Source: Moritella sp. PE36 (GTDB lineage: Bacteria > Pseudomonadota > Gammaproteobacteria > Enterobacterales > Moritellaceae). From it: a stretch of 64,000 nt of DNA. The notes below the pieces were generated by a model. That model saw only the letters and a list, made by a program, of their open reading frames with translations, was not told the origin of the DNA and did not search any database. The stretch covers positions 62,001 through 126,000 of the forward strand of contig NZ_ABCQ01000006.1 in assembly GCF_000170855.1 (NCBI RefSeq). Direction: 5' to 3'. Within the stretch, counting starts at the first letter, position 1. Each line of letters starts with the position of its first letter. The position numbers and the translations under genes are program-made. Shown one piece after another: positions 9,066 through 9,337 of this stretch.

Positions 9066-9105
9066 CTGTCACAATATGTGCATAAAACTGACATAAAAGT
9101 TTCAT
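9066..9105 (+). promoter_or_regulatory. Tandem Pho box (PhoB binding site)
   Basis: Four seven-base units start at 9066, 9077, 9088 and 9099, an exact 11-base period: CTGTCAC, TGTGCAT, CTGACAT and GTTTCAT, separated by A/T-only tetramers. The second pair matches the Pho-box consensus (CTGTCAT-N4-CTGTCAT) at most positions. A -10-like TTATAT at 9117-9122 lies 11 bases after the last unit, the normal geometry of PhoB-activated promoters. It points at the small gene at 9194. Confidence 0.6.
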
Positions 9106-9193
9106 GTGCATCTTATTTATATTACTGTATGTTTATAACCATAAAGAATAAAACAAAGCCTAGGATTAGGCAGAGAATATTAAGGATAACAAG

Positions 9194-9337
9194 ATGCTAA
9201 AGAAAAGATCAAAATTAAAACTTAAAACACCAAGACGCCAAATAGCGCGTTCAAGAATAAATCGTTCACTGCTTAACCGCCAGCGCTCATTCTTTTTACA
9301 AAATGAATTTGCCGGCTTACCTGATTTATTAGATTAA
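9194..9337 (+). CDS. Small basic protein of unknown function, probable Pho regulon member
   Basis: 47 codons plus stop. ATG is preceded by AAGGAT at a good distance. The product has 13 Lys/Arg and only 3 acidic residues. The first 31 residues are strongly basic ([13 protein letters not shown], then several spaced Arg), and the tail is hydrophobic-acidic, ending GLPDLLD. There is no signal peptide, transmembrane segment or cysteine. I do not recognise the family. It lies behind a tandem Pho box, so phosphate-starvation induction is inferred. Its stop overlaps the 3' end of convergent tadA by 4 bases. A nucleic-acid- or acidic-partner-binding role is possible from charge but unproven. Confidence 0.6.

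Follow-up and report, generated by a model that had tools for sequence, protein, structure and literature searches.

A small basic protein gene beside mltF, very probably activated by PhoB in Moritella, belongs to a protein group found in nine families of its order

A 47-codon gene, here called X, lies between mltF and tadA in Moritella sp. PE36 and encodes a small basic protein. We analysed it within a window of 64,000 nucleotides (assembly GCF_000170855.1, contig NZ_ABCQ01000006.1, positions 62,001 to 126,000), whose numbering is used throughout. Our joint reading is that X is a real, mltF-linked gene that would be induced by PhoB in Moritella and whose product would be a cationic helix docking on an anionic partner; taken as a whole, we consider this reading moderately probable. 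X is not peculiar to Moritella, as profile searches place its family in nine families of the order. The features of the locus are as follows.

7596–9059, plus strand: mltF (lytic transglycosylase F), the upstream neighbour to which X is linked, judged from the window, relatives and the E. coli gene order.
9066–9105, plus strand: predicted PhoB box of four heptamers with an 11-base period, from sequence and matrix; 33 of 40 columns are invariant in 11 Moritella.
9116–9123, plus strand: putative −10 element (TTTATA / TATATT), 10–12 nt past the last heptamer, from sequence and conservation.
9158–9171, minus strand: GCCTAATCCTAGGC hairpin followed by a T-rich tract, a possible intrinsic terminator of tadA within the X leader, from a terminator scan and the Moritella pattern.
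9182–9186, plus strand: Shine–Dalgarno sequence AAGGA, kept in 11/11 Moritella.
9194–9337, plus strand: X, a 47-codon gene for a small basic, predicted helical protein, from frame, conservation, dN/dS and family profiles.
9334–9882, minus strand: tadA (tRNA adenosine-34 deaminase), convergent with X and overlapping it by 4 nt.

X is a genuine protein-coding gene. The frame was found in all eleven Moritella genomes, which we count as one lineage where conservation is concerned, and both the AAGGA, located 7 nt ahead of the ATG, and the ATG itself are kept in every one of them. Over 38 codons in these genomes dN/dS was 0.119 (pN 0.052, pS 0.337), and pairwise differences were distributed 182/66/490 over the three codon positions, with 490 of 738 at third positions. 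In six genomes of f9, an Agarivorans-type family (f-numbers are our family labels for the order genomes, f1 being Moritella), dN/dS was 0.194. In the Moritella alignment, stops interrupt the remaining two forward frames at X as well as the antisense one. An earlier note on this DNA had described an Arg/Lys-rich frame of 47 codons with a good ribosome binding site, pressed against tadA, and each element of that description was recovered (AAGGA; K+R 13, with D+E 3; the 4-nt overlap). It had also staked the frame on conservation in relatives, which was found for the frame and the Pho box alike (11/11 Moritella) together with synonymous-biased change (dN/dS 0.12).

The genomic linkage of X is to mltF rather than to tadA. 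The 3′ end of X overlaps the tadA stop. In E. coli K-12 mltF and tadA themselves overlap by 4 bp, which leaves no room for X between them. Among 84 loci read from profile matches (one of them, G072, already known), mltF lies upstream of X on the same strand in 80; the four without mltF upstream within the stretch fetched are all from f6. tadA is absent from two f25 loci (L036 and L038, each holding 1.5 kb either side) where X sits beside mltF, and in G098 the stops of mltF and tadA are separated by 3.7 kb.

We then considered how far the family extends. A first profile search matched 40 of 394 order genomes and led to homologues in f9, mostly at the same mltF-X-tadA place; weak matches in other genes (L037, L040–L042) were dropped, and ten weaker ones had no loci. 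Basic frames around mltF and tadA were read in f5, f6, f8, f10, f15, f20, f21 (probably Vibrio-like) and f25, with a K/R filter that missed the X of L064. Because basic frames resemble each other by composition, leave-one-family-out HMM profiles were tested on the real sequences and on about 400 shuffles per family. In this test, 48 of the 51 sequences, drawn from nine families, outscored the whole set of shuffles, and the three others were equalled by shuffles (L091 in 9/400, L102 and L103 in 1/400 each), which supports homology beyond composition. The f8 sequences failed (0/3). At a cut-off of E ≤ 0.001, a profile built from 27 sequences matched 132 of the 394 order genomes, none of them outside the nine families; it missed the known carriers G019 and G024, so that other families may hold carriers that it did not detect. 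A class-wide search with a narrower profile matched 11 of 369 genomes, one being this genome and the other ten having E values of 3.8e-4 to 0.01; as it missed the carriers G015 and G039, it is no proof of absence outside the order.

Two observations concern the edges of this set. Three f8 loci (L175, L181 and L182, from genomes of about 2 Mb) carry small K/R-rich frames directly after mltF, which could be either strongly diverged copies of X or independent basic proteins. One f5 genome (G310) has two profile matches (C1:3833066–3833173 and C1:2973106–2973195), possibly a second copy of X or a chance match.

The product has a net charge of +9 to +16 in nine representatives. An AF2 model of the Moritella protein, built on an alignment of six related sequences, consists mainly of one long basic helix (residues 13–40) with an additional short helix (3–9); mean pLDDT is 77, reaching about 90 over residues 11–30, and pTM is 0.42. 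Three arginines, R14, R15 and R29, are near-invariant, and the distance from R14/R15 to R29 corresponds to about four helical turns. Searches gave no match in Pfam or NCBIfam, no relative of solved structure at E ≤ 10, and PHROGs yielded no more than a single unnamed family, hit in 5 of 14 cases at E 0.068; no structural or profile match names a binding partner. Our best guess from the model is that X would be an arginine-rich helix that engages RNA or some other polyanion, and its specific assignment as an RNA binder is tentative.

The ribosomal protein bL34 resembles X in length, basic character and R/K spacing. A kinship between them found no support: profile comparison gave a probability of 2.7%, ranking second of 61 when 60 column shuffles are counted, and by HMM the best real L34 scored 6.9, while the top one among 600 shuffled L34 sequences reached 7.3; 7.7% of these shuffles attained the median real L34 score. 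The L34 profile (PF00468) matched neither X of the window (E ≤ 10) nor the X locus in 31 genomes (E ≤ 1).

MltF works in the periplasm, and the best surviving alternative for the function of X is that it acts at the membrane or with MltF, as a cationic amphipathic helix that contacts phospholipid or polymers of the cell wall, and not on RNA. The basic helix and the linkage to mltF would suit such a role. X, however, has no signal or hydrophobic stretch on reading of its sequence that would take it to the compartment of MltF, and in Moritella it seems to be served by a promoter of its own. We consider this alternative unlikely, and RNA or another polyanion in the cytoplasm the preferred target.

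In Vibrio cholerae, tadA is VC0864 (PMC12588516) and mltF is VC0866 (PMC8820737), both according to the parts of those papers available. By locus tag VC0865 thus falls between them, as X does in the f21 genomes read, and on this order and position VC0865 is likely to be X. The available part of PMC6451090, the only paper that a literature search for VC0865 returned, lists it as a conserved hypothetical that a VqmR pulse represses 3.4-fold, and describes GFP fused to its 5′ region plus the first 20 codons, a construct that is repressed via VqmR domain R2. The control given there is thus by a quorum-sensing small RNA, and that part of the account draws no link to phosphate. Among the matches listed in our searches, titles and abstract openings mention no PhoB-controlled protein at the mltF-tadA place. 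The earlier note had called the protein undescribed; this holds only in part, as its likely counterpart VC0865 was already annotated as hypothetical and known as a VqmR target.

Upstream of X, heptamers begin exactly where the earlier note had put them, with an exact 11-base period and A/T spacers: CTGTCAC at 9066, TGTGCAT at 9077, CTGACAT at 9088 and GTTTCAT at 9099, separated by AATA, AAAA and AAAA. They match CTGTCAT at 6, 3, 6 and 5 of 7 positions. With a total of 20/28, the array scores highest among the 127,920 positions that the two strands of the window offer, the next best being 18. Tandem heptamers of the same 11-base period are found in the E. coli pstS, phoA and phoB promoters, and TTTATA at 9116–9121 follows the last heptamer by 10 nt, the same spacing as in phoA and pstS. 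The X box differs from the classical E. coli Pho promoters in having two weak heptamers of four (the second and the fourth), and the note's term "textbook" is therefore too generous. No σ70 promoter was found by a scan of 9000–9500 (1.6 expected), as would be expected if PhoB takes the place of a −35 element.

The array was also scored with a PhoB matrix from E. coli K-12, seeded with what we take to be the consensus; ten promoters were taken, ytfK was left out as having no site, and the remaining nine gave a rough matrix, with leave-one-out scores of the training promoters from 4.4 to 20.3. The pair at 9088 scored 11.9, third of 127,966 18-mers in the window, the pairs at 9066 and 9077 ranked 32nd and 156th, and the sum over four heptamers ranked first (26.4 compared to 24.5 for the next). 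Scoring by a PhoB matrix had been suggested in the earlier note, and by this measure the strongest pair comes third and the whole array first.

Could the box be a chance resemblance, with X real and either constitutive or under another regulator? Twenty Markov replicas of one strand gave one such array, roughly 0.05 per strand or 0.1 per window on both strands, so that the window alone is no proof of a box and it is conservation that settles it as a real site. The box is kept in 11/11 Moritella; the block 9081–9131 keeps 47 of 51 columns across them, the leader after it only 27 of 49, and box and promoter block are thus near invariant at a dS of 0.45.

Chance would also have to account for boxes in other families. 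We scored 250 nt upstream of X with the same matrix; control windows came from the same loci and are mostly coding sequence, and per-locus Markov shuffles allow for composition. With thresholds of 10.5 and 11.5 that were picked after the scores had been seen, 27 and 25 of 54 loci passed, compared to 4 and 2 of 888 control windows. At 10.5 these were f1 11/11, f9 8/10, f6 2/5, and 2/4 each in f15, f20 and f21, one of the f15 boxes (L067) falling inside mltF coding sequence; no locus passed in f5 (0/5), f25 (0/6), f10 (0/2) or f8 (0/3). In the 84 loci from profile matches, the same thresholds were passed by 12 and 6, compared to 4 and 2 of 336 controls; at 10.5 the 12 were f6 6/14, f21 4/27 and f25 2/22, with f5 at 0/21. 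Many f21 genomes have in common, at about 200 nt upstream, sites resembling GTGTCATATTGCAGTAAC whose score of 9.8 is below both thresholds. Nine f25 loci (L153, L248, L306, L308 and L312–L316) have xTTAA(C/T)- or xGTAAT-N4-xTGTCAC 68–112 nt upstream, mostly weak, which by an after-the-fact reading are possibly a degenerate Pho box.

The families that show no box, and the published control of vc0865 by VqmR in V. cholerae (PMC6451090, as far as its available part goes), would fit the chance explanation. Against it stand the near-invariant block in Moritella and the boxes of differing sequence in f9, f20, f6 and some f21 genomes, above the control rate, and we judge a chance resemblance quite improbable. 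X is thus very probably under PhoB activation in Moritella, as its upstream sequence indicates. Across the family, the matrix scores indicate a PhoB control that is recurrent and that was lost or never gained in part. No box was found in f5 and f10, and few in f25; the X family can therefore persist without phosphate control, which does not define it. The phosphate-starvation-induced small basic protein proposed in the earlier note is therefore likely in Moritella, but cannot be extended to the whole family, in which the boxes are not universal.

The rest of this genome holds a Pho system, with a PhoB ortholog (73% identical) and PhoR (50% identical). CTGTCAT-N4-CTGTCAT sites carrying at most two mismatches are in modest excess in the genome (61, compared to 41 for a reversed control). 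The longest arrays of the pattern are five of three heptamers (up to 3 mismatches). One, in L004 (G000:C121:1–2832), stands directly behind phoBR and serves as the Pho box array of the PstS-family gene that comes next (TIGR02136, 288 bits). Another precedes a 2-aminoethylphosphonate-binding gene of the PhnS2 family (TIGR03261, 487 bits), and we tied none of the other three to phosphate. Separately, the 18-mer GTGTAATCTTGCTGTCAT occurs six times in G000:C118:95622–96287, its copies offset by multiples of 108 bases, which probably reflects a long tandem repeat.

In E. coli, YtfK is under PhoB control, and the matrix found no box before ytfK. X could be imagined as a stand-in for a missing YtfK; this was rejected, as 10 of 11 Moritella have a YtfK homologue besides X. 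X has no similarity to E. coli YtfK (DUF1107), and the only YtfK match in this genome falls in a different gene, G000:C130. YtfK, a SpoT activator, is likewise a small protein discussed with phosphate starvation (PMC6917717, in the part available).

A terminator scan gave two terminator-like sites compared to 0.5 expected, and within the leader of X the pattern of the GCCTAATCCTAGGC hairpin with its T-rich tract fits 10 of 11 Moritella (L008 is the exception). The hairpin may be the tadA terminator, which we prefer over a riboregulator. The fold of the whole leader was no better than shuffles (z −0.36), the hairpin alone gave z −1.87, and Rfam had no match at E ≤ 1 in 8900–9500. A tadA terminator inside the X leader would make the tadA 3′ end antisense to all of X, and overlapping tadA and X transcripts are possibly an extra layer in Moritella. 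That the box serves mainly to make an RNA convergent with tadA, whose transcript or collision lowers TadA while the frame is incidental, would draw on this antisense arrangement and on the 4-nt overlap, but the strong amino-acid constraint on X and its place beside mltF where tadA is elsewhere (L036, L038 and G098) make it the least credible of the alternatives, and very unlikely.

Our preferred reading of X is that of a PhoB-induced, mltF-linked gene. Phosphorylated PhoB, bound to the tandem box at 9066–9105, would substitute for a −35 element and drive a short transcript starting near 9128 that encodes X, and X would build up when phosphate is short. The protein, predicted to be mainly one cationic helix with R14, R15 and R29 at fixed spacing, would most likely act in the cytoplasm. 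There it would dock on an anionic partner, at best guess a structured RNA (ribosome or tRNA), and tune translation in starvation. More specifically, X could be a PhoB-induced translation factor on rRNA or tRNA that adjusts or protects ribosomes, phosphate scarcity making rRNA scarce, and that is wired to VqmR in Vibrio-type genomes. In this full form the proposal is speculative and we would not expect it to hold in every part; if true, two signals, of starvation and of density, would reach translation through a single small protein.

By profile, the X family is present in a third of the sampled order genomes (132/394), with recurrent Pho boxes and no Pfam or NCBIfam model; for its likely Vibrio counterpart, the available part of the publication gives the small RNA regulator and no function. 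The family would thus be a missing piece in what is understood of phosphate shortage responses among marine and aquatic bacteria.
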